From Halichondria panicea (taxonomy: Eukaryota; Porifera; Demospongiae; Suberitida; Halichondriidae), in assembly GCF_963675165.1 (NCBI RefSeq), contig NC_087393.1:5134202-5198201 (forward strand): 64,000 nucleotides of DNA. The letters run 5' to 3'. Below, in pieces: positions 9,473 to 21,519 of this stretch; the stretch's first letter is position 1; the number at the start of each line of letters is the position of its first letter. The position numbers were made by a program, and so were the translations under genes. The notes below the pieces were generated by a model, which made no database searches, had not been told where the DNA came from, and saw nothing but the letters and a program-made list of their open reading frames with translations.

Positions 9473-10059
9473 ATGAAGACACTATACACACTTTTGGTTC
9501 CAGTTATTGTCAGTGTCGCTGTAGCCATTGGTAAGTTAATACTGTGTTACATTCTTTTAGATTCTACACATTCCTTCCCTCTACAGATAATCCTCAGAAT
9601 GGAGACATCCGATTGTCTGGTGGATCGTCTCTGAAAGGCCGTCTGGAGGTGTACAACAGCACCACTGATGTGTGGGGTACAGTGTGTTATACTAATGATA
9701 TAGCGCAGCAGAACTGGGAGAAGGGAGCAGCCAGGGCAGCTTGTCGTCAACTAGGCTATCAGGATGTCATTAGCGTTGGATCAGTCACTCAACTAATGTA
9801 ATTAAATGCCTGAGTGGATTAAGGTTTAATAGCCCTCACCCCTCCCCCCCCACACGTACATACACACAGTGTTCCACCTGCCCCTGAGACCACACCTATT
9901 CTTCTGTACGAAATGAGCTGTGTGTACAACACGGATGCCTCGGACCTCAACAACGAGATGGAGCATATTCTGAGATGTGATTTCTCTGAGGAGGGGAGTT
10001 GCAACCACACCCAGGACATGGCCATCGAGTGCAGTGAGTGAATGCTATTCCTGCACCCT

Positions 10060-10109
<50 letters not shown>

Positions 10110-10940
10110 AATACGTCCAAGTATGCCAGCCCCTACAGTGCAGAGGTTCGGCTGGTGGGTGGGGACTATCGCTCACACGGAGTAGTGGAAGTGTACGTCA
10201 ATGATATCTGGGGTACAGTGTGTGCTGAGAATATGACTGTCAACAATGCTGACTCAGCATGTCGTCAGATGGGCTACACAGGAGCTAACTCATTCTCCCA
10301 GGCCAACCCACTGTAAGTCCTGAAAGTGTAGCTATATAGAAGCTTAGTGTGTGGTGGTTTGGTTAGTTGATGTCCATTCTTCACTGCAGCAAGGACACTC
10401 AGCCTGCAGTCAAGACGTTGACCTGTTCAACTGTTCCGCAACCATGTTTCAGTTTCTGCTATTCGTATCCCCTAGCAACAGACACGGTCACCTGCGACTC
10501 TAACAAGATAGCGGCCATCACATGCAGTGAGTGTGTGAGATGGTGTGGTATAGGACTGTGTTAGTTATGTCCTCCTTCTCAGCATTTGATTGGCAGGCTT
10601 GGCATGATATAAAATTTACTTCTGGCAACGAGGTCACCTGTGAAGTTAGTAAGTTACACACTTATTATATTATATCATTCTAGTATATATTATTGGAACA
10701 AACATTGCTATGCTCTCACGATTAAGTAACCCCTCAATCACCCATATATATAATTATTGTCCTTAAGCTTCGCCGAGTTACTGGATACGATTGGCTGAGA
10801 TAATTGGAGGGGCTGTGGGGGGTCTTACGTTAGTCTTCATCCTCCTGATCACGACTCTGTGTTGCTGTTGTTTCATCAATGGCTGCCCCCTGCACTCTTG
10901 GAGAGAGAGGAGATTGTTTGGCTACGATAGAATCAACTAA
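9473..10940 (+). CDS. Two-domain SRCR membrane receptor, copy 1
   Basis: Exons 9473-9530, 9587-9797, 9870-10033, 10108-10312, 10390-10526, 10583-10648, 10768-10940; 337 aa. Order: signal peptide (TLLVPVIVSVAVAIG), SRCR domain 1 (GRLEVYNSTTDVWGTVC, AACRQLGY, CNHTQDMAIEC), SRCR domain 2 (VRLVGGDYRSHGVVEVY, DIWGTVC, ACRQMGY, IAAITC), short linker, transmembrane helix followed by CCCC, then a tail of about 20 residues (HSWRERRLFGYDRIN). SRCR domains bind proteins, glycans or microbial surfaces. Each exon boundary inside the domains is mirrored in copy 2. The tail has no obvious signalling motif, so it may need a partner. Ligand unknown. Confidence 0.9.
10060..10106. repeat. (CA)n microsatellite forming the acceptor of SRCR1 exon 4
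   Basis: The tract runs directly into CACAG|GT, so the dinucleotide repeat supplies the acceptor context. The homologous intron of copy 2 has a shorter tract (12126-12154). Confidence 0.85.
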
Positions 10941-11423: not shown

Positions 11424-11526
11424 TAGTGTTTTGATGGCTTTGTCAAGTGCTAATTATAAATATACACATGTACTATCTTTACCAACTTTGTACCTTTTTA
11501 ATTATTAGCATAGTCAAGAACATAGA

Positions 11527-12125
11527 ATGAAGACACTATACACACTTTTGGTTCCAGTTATTGTCAGTGTCGCTGTAGCCATTGGTAAGTTAATACTGTG
11601 TTACATTCTTAGATTCTACACATTCCTTCCCTCTGCAGATAATCCTCAGAATGGAGACATCCGATTGTCTGGCCTGGTGGATCGATCGTCTCTGAAAGGC
11701 CGCCTGGAGGTGTACAACAGCACCACTGATGTGTGGGGTACAGTGTGTTATACTAATGATATAGCGCAGCAGAACTGGGAGAAGGGAGCAGCCAGGGCAG
11801 CTTGTCGTCAACTAGGCTATCAGGATGTCATTAGCGTTGGATCAGTCACTCAGCTAAAGTAGTTAAATGCCTGAGTGGATTGAGGTTAATAGCCCTCAGC
11901 CCTCCCCCTCCCCCCCACACGTACATACACACAGTGTTCTACCTGCCCCTGAGACCACACCTATTCTTCTGTACGAAGTGAGCTGTGTGTACAATACGGA
12001 TGTCTCGAACCTTAACAACGAGATGGAGCATATTCTGAGATGTGATTTCTCTGAGGAGGGGAGTTGCAACCACACCCAGGACATGGCTATCGAGTGTAGT
12101 GAGTGAATGCTATTCCTGCACCCTC

Positions 12126-12156
<31 letters not shown>

Positions 12157-12707
12157 AATACGTCCAAGTATGCCAGCCCCTACAGTGCAGAGGTTCGGCT
12201 GGTGGGCGGGGACTATCGCTCTCACGGGGTGCTGGAGGTGTACGTCAACGATATCTGGGGTACGGTGTGTCCTGACAGTGTGACTGCCAGCAGTGCTCAG
12301 TCAGCATGTCGTCAGATGGGCTACACAGGAGCTAATTCATTCTCCCAGGCCGACCCACTGTAAGTCCTGGGAGTGTAGCTATTATATAGAAGCTTAGTGT
12401 GTGGTGATTAAACTCTGTTTGGTTAGTTGATTTTCGTTCATTCTTCACTGCAGCAAGGACACTCAACTTGTAATCCAGACATTGACTTGTTCTAGTTCTC
12501 GTCAATGTCTGGGTTTCTGCTTTTATTATCCTTCAGCAACAGACACGGTCACCTGCTTTTCTGACGCGATAGTAGCCATCACATGCAGTGAGTATAATTA
12601 CGAGATGGACTGTGTTAGTTATGTACTCCCCCTCCTCCTCAGCATTTGATTTGCAGAAAAAATATCTTACCCCTGGTAACGAGGACACCTGTGAGGCTAG
12701 TACATGT

Positions 12708-12764
<57 letters not shown>

Positions 12765-13058
12765 TAATCTCTCCTGTATTGTTAGACCATAATTATTGTT
12801 ATGCTCTCAACAGTAACCCTTCAATCACTTATAATTATAATTATAATGTATTTATCTCCTACAGCTCCTACAGTTCCTCCGCTCAACTGGATAGTACGAT
12901 TGGCTGAGACAATTGGAGGGGGTGTGGGGGGTCTGGCGTTGGTCCTTATCCTCATAATCACGACTCTGTGTTGCTGTTGTTTCACCAATGGCTGTCCCCT
13001 GCACTCTTGGAGAGAGAGGAGACTCTTTGGCGTTGACGGCTATGAGAAAATCAACTAA
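11527..13058 (+). CDS. Two-domain SRCR membrane receptor, copy 2
   Basis: Exons 11527-11584, 11639-11858, 11935-12098, 12155-12359, 12454-12587, 12643-12705, 12865-13058; 345 aa. The architecture is the same as copy 1: signal peptide, two SRCR domains, transmembrane helix, tail HSWRERRLFGVDGYEKIN. SRCR domain 1 is nearly identical to copy 1, while the distal part of domain 2 (QCLGFCFYYPSATDTVTC) and the stalk have diverged more. This pattern fits recent duplication or gene conversion in the 5' half with divergence of the membrane-proximal half. The 3' end faces the 3' end of the death-fold membrane protein gene, 245 bp away. Confidence 0.9.
12714..12761. repeat. (CA)n microsatellite in SRCR2 intron 6
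   Basis: An uninterrupted CA tract of about 24 units just after the donor at 12705. Confidence 0.9.
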
Positions 13059-13303: not shown

Positions 13304-15540
13304 TTAATTGTTCAGTTTACATCGTTTATACAGCCTGTAGCAGACAATGCCCTCCAGCAACAATACACTACTGATAAGCACAGCTAGCACAACCAGCACA
13401 CACACACTCACAATCAGCCAATTCACATTGTATATAGAAAACGATGTGTCCACCTGTGTAAAGGCTTTCTTTTCACTCCACTCACTGTCAAGTGAGTCGA
13501 CCTTGTGTACGTTAGCGAGCAAGCACATCTCATCGTTCATGTGCCAGAATTCATGGTAGGAGCTCTCGTTCATGGTAAAGGTGCAGTGTTGCTGTCCTTC
13601 TTCACTATCAGTTAGCGTGCAACTGTGTACAACAGCTTTTGGAGACGGTAGTTCATACGATACATTCGTGATGGTCATATTGTAGTCATACTTCATATTG
13701 TAGAAAGCCGAAGGATTGTTGAGGGTGAAGCGAACACTGTAATATCCAGACTTAGTCACCTTGTAGACAAAAGATTGGGGTAAGCAAGATTTTGACTGAT
13801 CCTCGTGGCAAGCATCGAAATCTATCGAGTATATAGCATCGATCAACTCCTTAGAATCTTCTAAACTGTTCCACACGGCCCCCAAATTGTCAATCACATG
13901 TACCTCAACAATAACTCTCTCCTGGGAATAATTTGTAACAGCACGAATTGAATAGTCAATCACAGATCCTTGGAGCAAGTACATAGTGTTGTTCTCAATG
14001 CGTTGCTGTTCAACTAATTGCTTCTGTGGTTCTATTGTGGTTGTTTTGTTGAGAAGCTTAGACTCTGAGTCAATCAGATAGAGGTCGATATTATGAGGGT
14101 ATGCTTTTAAAAACTGAGTTAGGTCTACACTTGCTAAATAATAGGGATGGAGGTGGTCAGCTAGCAGAACAAGAGATTGCTCAAACAGGAACTGTTGTTG
14201 GTTGTCAGGCTGATAAGTTGCAGCGTGGATTGTTCCATAGGTAGAACCAGCTATCCCTACCATTACCAGGACAGCAAACACAAACAGGCTGACAACAAGG
14301 AGTCGCACACCTTTTCCAACACTCTGATCTGTATGCACATGCACGGTACATTTAATAGTGACATCTGAAATTTATTTGTCTACTCACCGATTCTAATCTG
14401 TGGTAGCAGTGGTAGGTGCTCACCAGATCTAGATTCTGTAAGCACTGCAAATAAACATTCTCAAGTTGAGTTAGGGTATATGTATGTCCTCACCTTCTGT
14501 TTCTGAAGCACCATCATATGCGGGGGAACTATCAAGGAATCTTTCCATCACAGGCGACAGAGGTGTTCGGTTCCCTTTGAGCATTTTCACTGGTGTTGGG
14601 CTGCCTTCTGGAGCTGTTTCTAAAATGGACAATAGGGTTTAAAAAAATCAATGAGACACACTGACTTACCATAAGCGGTGATGGAGACAGGTGTTCCCCT
14701 CCTGGATGAATCAGACTGAATAGAATGCTTGGAGGAGTAAGTATTGGAGCTTCCTGCTGACTTGTAGTCTGTAGAGATGGGAGGACATTACTAAAGCAGC
14801 CAATTGCAATCTAATGTAGGTACCTGGATTTATTTTATCTTGGTACTCTTTCACTGACAACTTGTTTCTCTTGCGATACTCAATCAAATACTTGATGCAC
14901 TTGTAGGCACCAATGCTGTTGAGGCCGTTAGCAAGCTCAAGTTGATCCTCCTCTGTTATTTTGCGCCTCTCAACAATCATAGACAACACAGCAAGTATTG
15001 TTTCCATAGACAGCGATTCTTTATTGATTCCCAGCACTCTAGCCCAGTAACATCGTATACGATACTCCTCATCGTCGGATAAATGACAAGCAATCTTTGC
15101 CAGACACTGGAACAGCTGAGCACCTCGAGTGTCCCATATTGGATTGTGATCAGGAGGTTTGGAAAATCCATATTTCTCAAGTTTCCTCACTGATTTACAG
15201 CCGAACCGCTGGTGACCCACGAGATTGAGAGTGTACACTAGCCGACTGAGAGCTGCAGTCTCGTTTCCATTGTAGAGATTTTTGATGAGATAAAACAGCT
15301 CCAGGAGACAGTCAGCTTTCTCTAGCTCTACCTTAGAGATCTCAGCTCGAAAACTGAACTTCATTAGCTCCAGCGTATTATGTGATAGATATTGAACATC
15401 CACATATTGCAGCCATCCATTGAGGCCAAGTGCAGAAGGTGACACCTTTAGAAGGTATGGAAGGTATCTATAACTCTAGAGTACGCCATGCATTGTAGCC
15501 TTACCTCCTGTATACCCAAAGCTTGCTTTATTGACGCCAT
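13304..15540 (-). CDS. Two-pass membrane protein with tandem death-effector-like domains
   Basis: Exons (minus) 15505-15540, 14824-15445, 14670-14768, 14494-14619, 14388-14435, 13304-14328; 651 aa. Residues about 20-110 (LELMKFSFRAEISK, ADCLLELFYLIKN, SRLVYTLNLVG) and 120-205 (LFQCLAKIACHLSDDEEY, MIVERRKITEEDQLELANG, IGAYKCIKYLIEY) have the helix pattern of death-effector domains. A Ser/Thr/Pro-rich linker follows, then TM1 (LLVVSLFVFAVLVMVGIAG), a luminal or extracellular domain of about 270 residues with several N-glycosylation sites (NKT, NNT, NYS, NMT, NVS, NES) and a few cysteines, TM2 (WLIVSVCVLVVLAVLIS) and a short basic tail. Both ends should face the cytosol. The death-fold call is pattern-based; the ectodomain is unrecognised. 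The start is the ATG of the 12-codon first exon. Confidence 0.6.
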
Positions 15541-15827: not shown

Positions 15828-18800
15828 TTAGTCTTTGTGCTGAGGTGGCTTGTAATGCTTCCACTCCACGAGGGCAAAGGTCAGAGTTCCCACGGCTCCT
15901 AGCACCACCTGTACGAGATCAATGCACTCGTGTGGTTAAAGGTCAATACGAATAGACCAACTCACGAGAGCTAGCAGCTGCCACTGTAGTGTGATGAGGG
16001 AGGAGGTGAGGAAACCAACCATTGCCGCCAGTGACTACAGGGGGGGTATCATCAATGTGGGAGGGGGCTTTAACTCTTTGGTATTATTATACATATGCTT
16101 TTTAGACCTCTCTGTTGTAATAGCTTACCTGGAAGAATTTAAAGAGAGCCATGGCAGGAGCACTGTTTTCATCCGAGGGGTACAGGGCACCAATGATGGA
16201 GTAGATCTGTGAGGGGGGTAGTGGTGGGGGGTAGTGATGAGGGTAGTGATGGGGGGTAGTAATGGAGGGGTAGTGATGGGGGGTAGTGATGGGGGGTAGT
16301 AATGGAGGGGTAGTGATGGGGGGTAGTGATGGGGGGGTAGTAATGGAGGGGTAGTCTAGGACGTTGGTCTCACCTGTGTGTTGAAGCAAGCATCTCCCAG
16401 TCCCAGCAGGAACGCACACACCATCACGACATAGATACTATATGAGGGAGAAGAGAGAGGCTGATACAACACACTACATGTACAACATCTGTAAGTCAAC
16501 CAGCTAATATAGCATTAACATAGACGGAATCACACAATCTAAGCAAAGAGAATCCACCGACACACACACACACACACAGCAGACCACTGGTCTGCTGTGT
16601 GTGTGTGTGTGTGTCGGTGGATGGCCATTGTCCTGTGAGCAGACCACGGCCATGACCGAGGAATGCAGCCACAAAGTTTGCTCTTAGCCCTAACGTCAAC
16701 AGAAAGTTGGGGAATAAGTACAAGTGCAGACCAACCCTACATATAAGAGAGGTGTAAGTCTGCAGTCCAGCCAGTTTGCAAGACCCACAGAGAGAAAGCT
16801 AGCCCATCAGCTATCAGTCAGTATGACCAAGGTGAGTGAGTACTATAGCATTGTGCTGACACAGGAGATTAAGCATGTTGCGTGAGTGGGTGGTATGTGC
16901 CTGGGGGCTTTCCACAATAAAAACAGATCCCATGCTGCACACGATCAAACAACTATTACTCTATATACTGCAGCTATAGGTTTTCATTTTCAGTTGCACA
17001 GAGAGATACTGAATACTACTCATTGTGTAGTAGTAATGCTGTGACTCTCACGTGCACTGGTGACCACTAATTATAGTCAGCAACAAATAAAGCGTTACAG
17101 TGGATGCAGCTAGCTACATGCATGTAGTGCAGGCATGATAACAGCTACATGCATGCTGACAGCTACCATGCCAGTGCTAACAGCTACATGCATGCTACAT
17201 GCATGCTACATGCATGCTGACAGCTACCATGCCAGTGCTAACAGCTACATGCATGCAACAGCTACATGTACATGCATGCTAACAGACGTTGTCGTCCCCA
17301 CAGGTTAGGAACTACTTGTACTGCTCAGCCTAGCTGCACTCCTATCATCAGCAGCAAGCAAGGGAGGCGCTTGCCATGAGGTATTAGAAGTATTAAAAGT
17401 ATTGTACAGTTTCTTTTGATTCGAAATTTGAACCTCAGTAAAAACACTTGAAGTACTTGTACACCCACTCACAAACAGCTGTTTATGCAACCTACAGGAA
17501 CATGCTGGTTTGGTGCTTCAAGACATTATCCATAATGCACTTGTAAGTTGATACTTTAAGCGAAATGCGAGCTAGTGCCAGTTTAAAGCAATGCAGCCTA
17601 TCAGGCACGAAAATGTGCCTTGCTGTACAATTATACATAGTCTATGAAAGGTCAGTCACACGCACACTCAGTATGATCATCATTACTTAGGGGCCACAAG
17701 GAGGTTGTCTAGAAGCTGACCAGGTCCAAGTAGCTGTGTATGGACAAGGAGACACAATGGAGGCCAGAGTACTAACACTGGACAACCATGGCCTGGAGTT
17801 CAGGAACATACAACACACAACTAAAGACAGTAAGTGCTAGAGGTTAACTTGTACAGTGTTGGTGGTTGAACAATAACAAAACAGTGTTATTTCAAGATAA
17901 GAAGCAGGTCAAGCTTGTAACCAATAATAACTATACAGAGCTGACCACTACATTAGGAGGGCCAGCAAAGTCAACCATTTTATCAGCTTTACAAGTTTCA
18001 ATGCTAGTGTCTAGGCCACTCAACCGTGACCCGCCCACACATAGCTACACAAAGCCTTGGTTATAGCACCTGTGATGGGCAACGCAGAGGAGGTACGACA
18101 TGCGTACACAAATCACTAAAGGTTCAGTGTATTGATCTGGAACGTTATCACGTGACCACAAATGACATCAATGCGCTGAACTTGTAGTGATCCGTGCATG
18201 CATGTCGGACCTCCTCTGGAGCGGCCACTCTCTCGTAAGTCCCTCGCACTAATCGGCCATAACCAACAGGTGACAAATCTATCACCTTGTGTATTTACTT
18301 TTTATAATAGGTCTCTTCTACCTAGTGAGCATGCCACCCACCCCCCTTGACCTTCGACCCTGGTTCCTAATATTCAGCTCAGACATGCAGTCAGTGCTAC
18401 AAGTGGACAGCGATGGAACAATCGCCATGAAGGTATGTAGTTACAGACAATACTACATTACCTCATTAAAATCACCTCATGCTAATTAAATTCATGAGGC
18501 ATTAAACGAATTTCAAGAAGTATTATAATAACAAAGCAATCAAATGCATGACCTTCTAACCGTATAGCGCGAAATGTTCGAGGTACTTAAATATAAATTG
18601 TGTCCCAGGTCACGCCTTAAATCTTTGTACTTGAAAAGAAACATTTTCTTGTGCATGCATGTAGAATTGCTAACCTAACGAAAGCAGTGAAAATTAAGCT
18701 TCTCTAAAATTTCGCGCTATACGGTATAAAATAAAAGCAATGTAATCATTTTAAATGTCCATTTTCCCTCACAGGCTGCTAGTGATATCTCACTCGCTTG

Positions 18801-21519
18801 TTGTGCTCTGGCTGACTACCAGTTCTCCTTGAGGGAGGGTATGGACCACGCTCAGTTGGTATCTAGCCAGGGGGTAGTCGGTGTGACCCCCCAGGGAGCT
18901 ATGAAAGTGGGCGGGGCCACCTCTCGCTATCATGTGAGAATAGTCACTACTGTGGAGAAATGCTATCCAGGAGGGGAGGAGGCAAAGAACGACACAAAGA
19001 CTAACGAGTAAAGAACTGACTAACTCTAAACTGCCAATCTTTAATTAAACAAATTGTGTACAATATTTAGTATTACACACACTCACTTTGATGGGTTGAA
19101 TAGCGCTCCAAATGAGTCCGGTACGGATATATTCTTTATACTGGAATTCTCGGGGAGGTTGTAAAAGACGAGTAGATACACAGCAAAGTGTACTAGCATG
19201 CCCAATAGTACCACCGGGTCCTTGCCCCAGCGATTAGTATAGCGACCAAATATACCAAACAAACCACCTCCTGTAATATCATAGATTACATGACATTAGT
19301 ATACAGTTACAGGGTGAATGCCAACCTACCGACTATCTCTCCAAGACCAATGAAGAGTCCAGCTAGTCCAATGTTGGCCCTGTTGAACACTCCAGTCCTA
19401 CCCACTACTGTACCGTACACTCCACTCCAGAAGTTGAGCTCGTACCCTACACGGAGAAGATATAGCTCCCTCCACACACCCACACAGCCTCCCACACACA
19501 CACACACACAGCCTCCCCCCACACACACACACATCCACCCACACACTCTACCTGTGTAGATGAAGGTGATGCTGAGCAGCATCATGTCCACACTAAACAT
19601 GAGCTTCACAGCACGTACTACAAGGAGAGAGGAGAGAGGGTAACACATGAGAGATCATTATTATATAGTATATGACAGTGAACACTAACCTAGTGACCTG
19701 CCAGCTACGATACAAGCAGCCTTTCCACTCAAGGGGGCAGTACTATAGTCAGTGGTACCCTTTGTAAGCAATCCCTTGTTCTCACTGTGTGGGGGGGGGG
19801 CAGTGTGGGTAAGTGTGTGAGGTGTGTGTGTGGTGTGTGCCTACCTCAGACCCTCGTTGACATTTACAGCTGTTGAATGGATGCTTTTAGGAGCTTTTTC
19901 TCTGAGGTTGACTAGCCACAGTATGACAAAAAACATCACCCCCAATAAACCAAGCACAGTGAACACTCCAAAGATGATGTAATTCTCCGAGTGTTCTGTG
20001 TGTGTGGGGTGGGGGTGGGGTGTGTGTGTGGAGTGTGTGTGAGGTCTTTCCTTACCTAAGCAAATGTTGTCTCCTTTCTGATAGGACAGGAAAATAAAGA
20101 AGAACAGGTTGCCATAGATCAAGCTGTGGGGGGTAATGATATTATCATCTCTGTGGGGGGTGGTGGTAACGTACCTTGACTGTAGCATAAGCCAGAATAT
20201 CCCGCTAGTGACAGGCATGCGACTCTTCGAGGAATTCTGGATTAGTATCTGCCCCTGTGCCGTCCAGAGAACTGTGTGAGGGGGGTGGGTGGTTAGCGGA
20301 GTGGGTGTGGTTACATGACTCACTTCCTCCGGCACTGCCCAATAGGAATGCTCCGATGAATATCATTGGAACGTAAGGTCGAACCAGAGCCCCTATATAC
20401 ACCCTGTCAGCCAAATAATAATAATAATCGTATGATGTGCTATTAGTGACTGGAGAGTGTACAGCAATTAATCCTGTATCACATCCGGTCCAGTAATTGC
20501 ACGCTGTCAATGATAACGTATTGTTTTTAGAATAACGACCGCAGTTGAAAATAAAACTGTAGAGAACTGTACCATAAACGATGAAGTTTGATAGTTCATA
20601 ACAAGCACTGGTAAAGTTAACAGCATTCGTACAATTAGAAGTCTTGCCATTGCTTGTTACTCGTATGTCATTCTTAGCCATACCATAATTATACAAATTC
20701 CTACCAGGAAGTAATTTAAATGCAGTGTCTAACTCACACGTATAAGGCTCCAGTGATGATGAGGGACAGACGTGATCCAAACACTGCCACCACGGGTACT
20801 GACAACCAGTTGCCAATGGCAACCATCAGGTAGATGAGACACAGGCTACAAACATTAATACCTGACGCAGCTGTTACTATGGTTACACACACCCACTCAC
20901 CTGTAGTAACCGAGCTCAGCTGTGTGTGTGTGTATGTTATATAAATCAGTGCATTCAAATAACAGATTAATACTTCACTTACAAACAAACTCCTCAGTGA
21001 TAGGGATGCCGCCCTACAGGGAGAGATGCATGCATGGGTGATTAACACATGGTTATGGAATGTACATGACATGTTACTGATTTATAGGTATGTGTGGGTG
21101 TGATTCTCACATCAATATAGGTGCCGCTGCCGTTAGTTGAGTTGCCTTGACATTTTGGGGATAGAAAGCTGTTGATTGTGATCGTCTGAAGCACAATAGA
21201 GTATTAGTACCATATTCATGTAAGGGACAACACATACCTGTACAAATGCTGACGTCTGGAAGGCAGTAAAGAGAAACATGAAGCCAAAGCCTAGAAGGAC
21301 AATGTTCAGCCAGTTCTTCTTGCTCATAGTTAGTAGCTGAACGGACTCCATCTTGTTTCTCTGGCCTCTGACTAATGGTTCCTCTGAATGGCTGGGTTCG
21401 GGGTGGGTCTCTGGGTCTAGTGTGGGTAATAGCGTCTCCTGGTCACTCTGCTCGGCCTCAGATACTCCTATAGAGAGCAGCTCTAAGCTTTCTGCATGGA
21501 CAGCTAGTTGACCTTCCAC
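15828..21519 (-). CDS. MFSD11: MFSD11/UNC93-like major facilitator protein
   Basis: Seventeen exons (minus): 21238-21519, 21111-21185, 20983-21013, 20901-20919, 20738-20845, 20324-20403, 20175-20271, 20056-20123, 19845-19995, 19690-19784, 19552-19617, 19330-19446, 19087-19270, 16374-16437, 16129-16206, 15966-16034, 15828-15908; 554 aa, all in phase. Family signatures: LGFGFMFLFTAFQTSAFVQ, LWTAQGQ, GIFWLMLQS, GNLFFFIFLSYQKG, LSITFIYTG, FWSGVYGTVVG, IGLAGLFIGLGEIVGG, FLLGLGDACFNTQ, SAPAMALFKFFQ. It is a 12-helix membrane protein of the UNC93 branch; the substrate of MFSD11 is not established. The N-terminal extension has an acidic dileucine DQETLLP, which suggests endolysosomal sorting. One exon is only 19 nt. 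Intron 16438-19086 holds another gene on the opposite strand. Confidence 0.93.
16207..16352. repeat. Minisatellite GGGGTAGTGATGG/GGGGTAGTAATGG at MFSD11 intron acceptor
   Basis: Ten or more 13-15 bp units end at the acceptor of the exon starting at 16206 (minus). On the transcript strand they read as CCATCACTACCCC, again pyrimidine-rich with branch-point-like ACTA. Confidence 0.8.
16552..16622. repeat. Perfect palindrome with 35-bp arms and a 1-bp centre
   Basis: Arms 16552-16586 and 16588-16622 are exact reverse complements around C16587. Each arm is ATCCACCGA, a (CA)n run, then CAGCAGACCA. It lies in the MFSD11 intron about 200 bp upstream of the nested gene start. Confidence 0.95.
16741..16822 (+). 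promoter_or_regulatory. Putative TATA-type core promoter of the nested secreted-protein gene
   Basis: CATATAAGAG at about 16740-16749 sits about 80 bp before the ATG at 16823, leaving room for a short 5'UTR. It is the only clear TATA-like element seen near a gene start here. The role is inferred from position. Confidence 0.4.
16823..19011 (+). CDS. Small secreted protein nested in an MFSD11 intron (opposite strand)
   Basis: Exons 16823-16831, 17309-17380, 17498-17542, 17691-17829, 18311-18432, 18775-19011; 207 aa. The first exon encodes only MTK; the second begins after GGTTAG and completes a strong signal peptide (ELLVLLSLAALLSSAASKG). The mature chain is soluble, with cysteines at GGACHE, GGCLEA, LACCALA and KCYPGG and alternating beta-like stretches (VQVAVYGQG, FLIFSSDMQSVLQVDSDG). 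It ends in a charged tail. No family was recognised. The whole gene fits inside the 2.65-kb intron 16438-19086 of the MFSD11 gene. Intron 5 carries two MITEs. Confidence 0.75.
17105..17285. repeat. ACAGCTACATGCATGCTG tandem repeat
   Basis: Imperfect 18-40 bp units made of ACAGCTACATGCATG and ACAGCTACCATGCCAGTGCT in intron 1 of the nested gene, close to the acceptor of exon 2. Confidence 0.75.
18085..18218. mobile_element. MITE family B copy with CAGAGGAGGT termini
   Basis: Left end CAGAGGAGGTACGACATGCG and right end CATGTCGGACCTCCTCTG are inverted repeats, with internal AATCACT/AGTGAT also inverted. About 134 bp. It is related to 4247-4371. Confidence 0.65.
18559..18727. mobile_element. MITE family A variant (ACCGTATAGCGCGAAAT termini)
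   Basis: Ends ACCGTATAGCGCGAAAT and ATTTCGCGCTATACGGT are perfect inverted repeats of 17 bp; GCGCGAAA replaces the GCGGGTAA of the main family. Confidence 0.8.

Follow-up and report, generated by a model that had tools for sequence, protein, structure and literature searches.

A putative membrane protein with divergent tandem death effector domains and an APD1-4-like ectodomain in the sponge Halichondria panicea

Results

A six-exon gene with a predicted DED-TM architecture

The window analysed here was a stretch of 64,000 nucleotides from the sponge Halichondria panicea (assembly GCF_963675165.1, contig NC_087393.1, positions 5,134,202 to 5,198,201). On its minus strand, at 13304-15540, we found a gene of six exons that, in the reverse-strand reading, formed one frame of 651 residues with no stop codon between the joined parts. 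Its product was predicted to combine two death effector domains (DED) with two transmembrane (TM) helices, and the gene is referred to below as the DED-TM gene. The five introns were 50-59 bp long and all had GT-AG borders, with phases 0,1,1,1,1. Both large exons lay within open frames (254 and 355 codons). For the 12-codon first exon and the three linker exons, all short, the calls rested on visual inspection and on reading frame. As no methionine preceded the domain in the frame of the DED exon, a start exon further upstream was required. The gene had the following features, given in window coordinates:

15505-15540, minus strand: exon 1, start codon and residues 1-12 (MASIKQALGIQE); ATG, donor GTAAGG, phase 0; the least certain exon
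14824-15445, minus strand: exon 2, encoding residues 13-219 with both DED-like domains; GT-AG borders around an open frame, and paralogous exons in L043, L045 and L063
15167-15418, minus strand: putative DED1, about residues 22-105; Pfam DED and FADD profile match, coordinates verified by translation
14864-15121, minus strand: putative DED2, about residues 121-206; profile comparison and FADD match, coordinates verified by translation
14670-14768, minus strand: exon 3, linker, 99 bases; symmetric phase 1-1
14494-14619, minus strand: exon 4, portion of the S/T/P-rich linker, 126 bases; symmetric phase 1-1
14388-14435, minus strand: exon 5, linker residues 295-310, 48 bases; symmetric phase 1-1
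14404-14421, minus strand: EHLPLL, residues 300-305, acidic dileucine sorting-type motif, 14 residues before TM1
13304-14328, minus strand: exon 6, TM1, ectodomain, TM2, tail and stop; paralogous exons exist
14246-14302, minus strand: predicted TM1, best 19-mer, residues 320-338; hydropathy 2.86 and flanking charges
13418-14245, minus strand: predicted ectodomain, residues 339-614 (276 residues); six N-X-S/T sequons, five Cys
13907-14080, minus strand: APD1-4_N-like stretch, residues 394-451, containing a YLL-x-GS motif; Pfam E 0.054, below cut-off
13568-13771, minus strand: APD1-4_M-like stretch, residues 497-564; Pfam E 0.083 in the whole protein and 0.59 in the exon alone, below cut-off
13361-13417, minus strand: predicted TM2, best 19-mer, residues 615-633, then a short basic tail; hydropathy 3.12, four K/R on the C-terminal flank

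The initial annotation had proposed two DED-like domains, a Ser/Thr/Pro linker, a TM helix, an ectodomain of about 270 residues with N-glycosylation potential, and a second helix. The sequence supported this order of parts, the length and sequon content of the ectodomain agreed with it, and the same architecture was repeated in three paralogues.

A small family of diverged paralogues

We searched the whole genome (131 Mb, 39 contigs) and found paralogues on C11, C10 and C12, in each of which a TM-ectodomain-TM exon lay about 1-1.5 kb downstream of a tandem-DED exon and had the same orientation. In the C11 copy (L043), the DED exon and the ectodomain exon of the window gene found separate matches with 37% and 30% identity (E 1.2e-22 and 1.8e-18), located 1.0 kb apart on one strand. 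The C10 copy (L045) had a DED match of 22% identity (E 0.005) and a TM-ectodomain-TM frame 1.2 kb downstream. The C11 ectodomain weakly matched the C12 member (L063), with E 0.077 and, in the reciprocal search, 0.13. This match directly followed a DED that Pfam had listed independently, and L063 was assigned to the family by these weak ectodomain matches and by its layout.

Since the same order of parts recurred in three paralogues that had diverged to 15-36% identity, the exon joining in the DED-TM gene was unlikely to be accidental. The calling of four short exons by eye and frame would suit a model in which an adjacent DED gene and a TM-ectodomain-TM gene had been wrongly joined, but the pairing, order and strand were the same in all three paralogues, the introns of the window gene were very short with no stop between the joined parts, and the phase-1 border after DED2, which was computed for the window gene, was also seen by eye in two of the three paralogues (C10 and C12). 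A false join was therefore very improbable, and we rejected it.

In the C11 copy, the frame was broken by a single base close to where DED2 ends (L043:4935-4975, minus strand), so this was either a decaying copy, an assembly error or a case of unrecognised splicing; its DED sequence was used only up to the stop. The C12 ectodomain had three further relatives on the same contig (E 1.9e-20, 2.6e-18 and 4.7e-9, at C12:4495647, 4247840 and 4483291, plus strand), and a DED frame was not seen in the 1.1 kb upstream of one of them (L064). Another ectodomain match at C5:3800605 (E 0.007) contained an internal stop and had no DED-TM gene around it by eye, and it was dropped. No relatives were found in viral contigs (A1, A2) or in prokaryote genomes (A1 only). 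The genome search gave 21 DED places, of which eight (L001-L008, with L046) were examined for TM frames, some of them on one strand, and L063 in full.

The neighbourhood of the gene was also partly repeated. Two very similar SRCR receptor genes, identified by eye and with Pfam SRCR matches, were located in tandem at window positions 9535-10940 and 11509-13058 on the plus strand, and this pair stood tail to tail with the DED-TM gene. The C11 paralogue was likewise adjoined tail to tail by an exon resembling an SRCR-type last exon (L043:2574-2897, 42% identity over 71 residues). Because both copies had an SRCR-type tail exon alongside, an SRCR gene and a DED-TM gene were probably duplicated as a two-gene block. 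On the other side, at window positions 15845-16437 and 19200-21500 (minus strand), there were frames that looked like multi-pass membrane proteins of the UNC-93 type; the frame at 16102-16437 had no Pfam match.

Divergent tandem DEDs

The Pfam DED family (PF01335) matched the window DED exon with E 3.2e-5, best over exon residues 20-55, and its 24.5 bits were below the curated cut-off of 35.9 bits. The C11 exon also stayed below it (26.3 bits, E 8.9e-6), and the C10 exon had no Pfam match at a limit of E 10. DED2 of the C12 member reached 37.0 bits in the six-frame Pfam search and 35.3 bits alone. Pfam DED matches at E 1 or better were present in three of the four family members, and in a genome-wide DED search at E 0.001 the window DEDs were absent. 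For the window exon, DED was the sole family among the Pfam matches listed up to E 10, where the HMMER filters hide most weak matches; at the same limit, CARD, Death and PYD were listed for none of the window, C11 and C10 DED exons.

Profile comparison gave a stronger signal. Using hhalign, we compared a three-member profile (window, C11 and C10) with four tandem-DED units taken from this genome, namely two from caspase-type genes and two obtained by splitting a tetra-DED protein, with the single-DED loci L006-L008 left out. The result was 94.1% over 165 columns across both domains, and 95.5% when the C12 member was added. Single members scored lower in such a comparison (77% for the window exon, 5.4% for the C10 exon). 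When the three-member profile was split by domain and compared with seven of the eight own-genome domains, DED1 reached 73.9% and DED2 94.2%. The score of the three-member profile (53.4), on which all 400 shuffles were made, was reached by none of 200 column shuffles (best 22.6) and none of 200 shuffles of 11-residue blocks (best 31.5), and the reversed profile gave 0.2%. These controls, together with the lack of listed CARD, Death or PYD matches, ruled out generic helical similarity as the source of the signal.

When the four-member profile was run against 177635 PDB sequences, all nine matches at E 1 or better were FADD (best 4.5e-4). Four of the nine had their best stretch at DED1 and the other five at DED2, and FADD residues 5-55 aligned at DED1 and residues 36-83 at DED2. 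With the three-member profile, the FADD match (E 0.38) ranked below an unrelated chain (E 0.15) and was not significant, and the window DED exon alone had no PDB matches. Thus, the FADD-only result leaned on the fourth member. Within the genome, the best match of the window DED exon outside its own family was a tandem-DED caspase, a weak match at E 0.34 with four candidates scored. Taken together, these comparisons supported the view that the window domains were divergent but real tandem DEDs, which would be expected to take the six-helix death fold.

The canonical motif of DEDs is the E/D-RxDL charge triad. RxDL was absent from both window domains (GHQRFG in DED1 and GAYKCI in DED2), and the window protein may therefore have lost the contact surface that DEDs normally use. 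In DED2 of the C12 member, the motif was present as IGRSEL.

An ectodomain with a probable distant kinship to the APD1-4 module

The ectodomain had initially been described as matching nothing recognisable, and this description had to be revised. A Pfam scan of the whole protein listed APD1-4_N (PF16040) followed by APD1-4_M (PF16041), which is the expected order, at 13.6 and 13.5 bits against curated cut-offs of 27 and 25, and so the resemblance was weak and sub-threshold. The C12 ectodomain matched the same part of APD1-4_N (E 0.33, below cut-off), and the C11 and C10 ectodomain exons had no APD match at a Pfam limit of E 10.

Elsewhere in the genome there were 12 other APD1-4_M matches, all above cut-off, of which ten were clustered on C8 and two were on C17. 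The corresponding genes, L047-L055 (C8:5.48-5.61 Mb) and L056/L057 (C17:1.9 Mb), included some that were broken over two frames; those on C17 had a PPPY tail and stood beside frames resembling ankyrin repeats. In the frames viewed (L053 and L054 in part), the layout was a short cytosolic start, a TM helix, an ectodomain, a second TM helix and a short tail. The two genes that were scanned with Pfam had neither DED nor RING.

A profile of the four DED-TM ectodomains was compared with five of the 12 APD genes and reached 91.6% with the TM helices included and 56.6% (E 1.1e-4) without them. The score of the TM-less profile (37.2) was above all of 100 block shuffles (best 28.0), and the reversed profile gave 0.1%. 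Each ectodomain alone, compared with the five genes after TM removal, gave 0.3-15.8%. A distant kinship between the DED-TM ectodomain and the APD1-4 module is likely, with a signal from the pooled profile and not from the single ectodomains. PDB searches with the ectodomain profiles returned one unconvincing match each (E 1 and 1.6), and a search with one APD gene matched mainly on its Gly-rich stretch, mostly to antibody linkers. Across the four ectodomains, a Y-L-x-x-G motif, one further tyrosine and two cysteines were invariant, and four Cys columns were common to at least three members.

The APD1-4 resemblance bears on a function outside cell death. The protein could be an APD-like component of endomembrane trafficking or of the ubiquitin pathway, to which tandem DEDs were added to serve as a general scaffold; PEA-15, for example, uses a DED for kinases. 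This interpretation would fit the divergent DED surfaces and the six S/T-P sites of the linker (see below), as well as the observation that a genome-wide Pfam DED search listed no DED match beside any of the 12 other APD1-4_M matches. Nevertheless, FADD provided the closest DED matches by database search and the weak best match within the genome was to a tandem-DED caspase, and we consider a non-death role improbable.

Predicted topology and a linker motif

On the predicted cytosolic flanks of TM1 and TM2 there were three and four K/R per 15 residues, and none on either of the opposite flanks. An N-in/C-in topology was predicted because of these basic residues, in line with the initial placement of the DEDs on the cytosolic side. 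Hydropathy maxima, basic flanks and the six ectodomain sequons agreed in predicting cytosolic N and C termini with an extracytosolic middle part. Two further sequons, at residues 73 and 269, were in the predicted cytosolic part and would go unused there. The linker (residues 220-310) contained 36% S/T/P and six S/T-P sites, which are possible phosphorylation sites.

All four family members had in their cytosolic linker a short motif (EHLPLL, ENTPLL, EESKLI and ERKKLL) of the acidic dileucine sorting type. Such a motif occurred by chance in 6-18% of shuffled segments for the three members tested, the motif of the fourth member sat well away from TM1 on a preceding linker exon, and the pattern was picked out post hoc; for these reasons, endolysosomal residence of the family was only a lead.

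The motif would also suit a membrane-bound decoy or brake, in which the tandem DEDs hold FADD-like or caspase proteins without activating them and the ectodomain sets only location or turnover. Inhibitors of the cFLIP and BAR type hold DED partners without activation in this manner. The Pfam matches of the 651 residues included no protease or other effector domain, and DEDs that had lost RxDL might cap assemblies rather than extend them. On the other hand, a large sequon-bearing ectodomain, with a layout kept in four diverged members, suggested binding of a ligand or partner over a mere anchor. A purely inhibitory role was thus judged unlikely.

Candidate partners in the same genome

Judging by domain matches, candidate genes of the caspase-8-like and FADD-like types coexist with the DED-TM gene in one genome. 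At L046:2813-5937, a caspase frame (Peptidase_C14 1.1e-52) with QACRG lay 0.7 kb downstream of a tandem-DED frame (DED 1.7e-28), and caspase-8 was the closest solved relative of these DEDs. In a second tandem-DED gene (L001), the next frame was caspase-like by eye, and near it a 439-codon frame (L003/L004, C10:2.93 Mb) apparently contained four DEDs, three of which were matched by Pfam. A candidate FADD-like gene at C7:1623085-1623814 (plus strand) had a DED match and then a Death match 445 bp apart. Genome-wide, Pfam gave at least 148 Death-domain matches and one TNFR_c6 match.

Discussion

A possible membrane seed for DED assembly

We propose that the DED-TM protein may be a clustering, receptor-like membrane protein that seeds DED assembly with FADD-like or caspase-8-like partners, a reading to which we give an even chance. 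In the cytosol, tandem DEDs related to FADD and to prodomains of the caspase-8 type would be joined through a flexible linker to a membrane module of two helices, and this module would expose a glycosylatable APD1-4-like ectodomain either extracellularly or to the lumen of endolysosomes. Ligand, damage or crowding might cluster the ectodomains, and the clustered DEDs could then serve as a membrane seed. Through DED-DED contact this seed would recruit FADD-like proteins, tandem-DED caspases or both, and their proximity would activate them; the output would be death or another DED-driven response. The DED fold, cell location, ligand, partner and output are all inferred from sequence, and the direct coupling of a sensor to death-fold assembly, as suggested in the initial annotation, is likewise our inference. 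The braking and the non-death readings each keep some probability because the canonical DED motif was lost and no effector domain was present.

In vertebrates, extrinsic death starts at a Death-domain receptor, which signals to DED caspases by way of FADD. If a receptor carried its own DEDs, such a chain would be cut to one step, which would hint at how sensing may have become connected with caspase activation in early animals. An APD1-4-like ectodomain would then also have a possible role in an animal. The genome offers candidate partners in the tandem-DED caspase, the second tandem-DED gene (caspase-like by eye) and the FADD-like gene. In another sponge, Amphimedon, the adaptor FADD was reported to be supersaturable and the receptor and effector were not (PMC13012725), and a receptor acting as a seed would therefore have a physical basis.

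A more specific hypothesis can be formulated as well. The protein might be a one-component death receptor in which an APD-like sensor and its own tandem DEDs directly seed caspase-8-like filaments, with neither a Death-domain receptor nor FADD. The putative evolutionary event would be the placement of a tandem-DED exon, via the symmetric phase-1 linker exons, before a TM-ectodomain-TM module of the kind joined to a RING ligase in plants, followed by diversification into a small family. We regard this full scenario as rather doubtful.

Comparison with known systems

FADD, caspase-8 and cFLIP are soluble adaptors or proteases. The DED-TM protein shares with them DED homology, and with caspase-8 and cFLIP the tandem arrangement. 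In contrast to them, it was predicted to be membrane-anchored, it lacked RxDL and it had no caspase or Death match; Pfam listed no caspase or caspase-like domain after the tandem DED in the 651 residues. Death receptors such as Fas and TNFR1 combine Cys-rich TNFR repeats with a Death domain, and FADD links them to DEDs. The likeness to them would be the coupling of an ectodomain to a death fold, if the proposed mechanism is right, and neither Death nor TNFR_c6 was among the four Pfam families listed for the 651 residues. BAP31 and BAR/BFAR are also membrane proteins with a DED-like segment, but theirs is single and weak, and they are without an ectodomain of the DED-TM kind. The plant APD1-4 proteins are transmembrane ubiquitin ligases with a TM-ectodomain-TM layout and a C-terminal RING. 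The DED-TM protein resembled them in this layout and in weak N- and M-domain similarity below the Pfam cut-offs, but had predicted cytosolic tandem DEDs in place of the RING, which was not among the same four families (limit E 10).

By homology, then, the protein is a member of the DED superfamily as judged from profile comparison, though below the Pfam cut-off; by predicted architecture, it is no death receptor, caspase, cFLIP or APD ligase. In the open literature searched, which had most subscription papers outside its reach, no protein combining tandem DEDs, TM helices and an APD module was found. The available parts of four reports described DEDs, or NLRs with TM segments, but no protein of the DED-TM type (PMC6321704, PMC5094078, PMC11797021, PMC12909245). 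Membrane-anchored DED proteins as such are not unprecedented, although the architecture had at first seemed unfamiliar. One study described about 50 proteins of the oyster Crassostrea virginica with a Cys-rich ectodomain, a TM helix, a DED and TRADD-N (PMC8195603). They form a lineage-specific family and, similar to the DED-TM protein, carry an ectodomain together with a DED on the cytosolic side of the membrane. The oyster proteins have, in the same source, one TM helix, one DED located C-terminal to it, TRADD-N and variable C-terminal domains, whereas the DED-TM protein was predicted to have an N-terminal tandem DED and two TM helices (PMC8195603). The oyster expansion of ectodomain-TM-DED-TRADD-N proteins is the closest published parallel that we found and a precedent for an ectodomain, a TM helix and a DED in one protein (PMC8195603).
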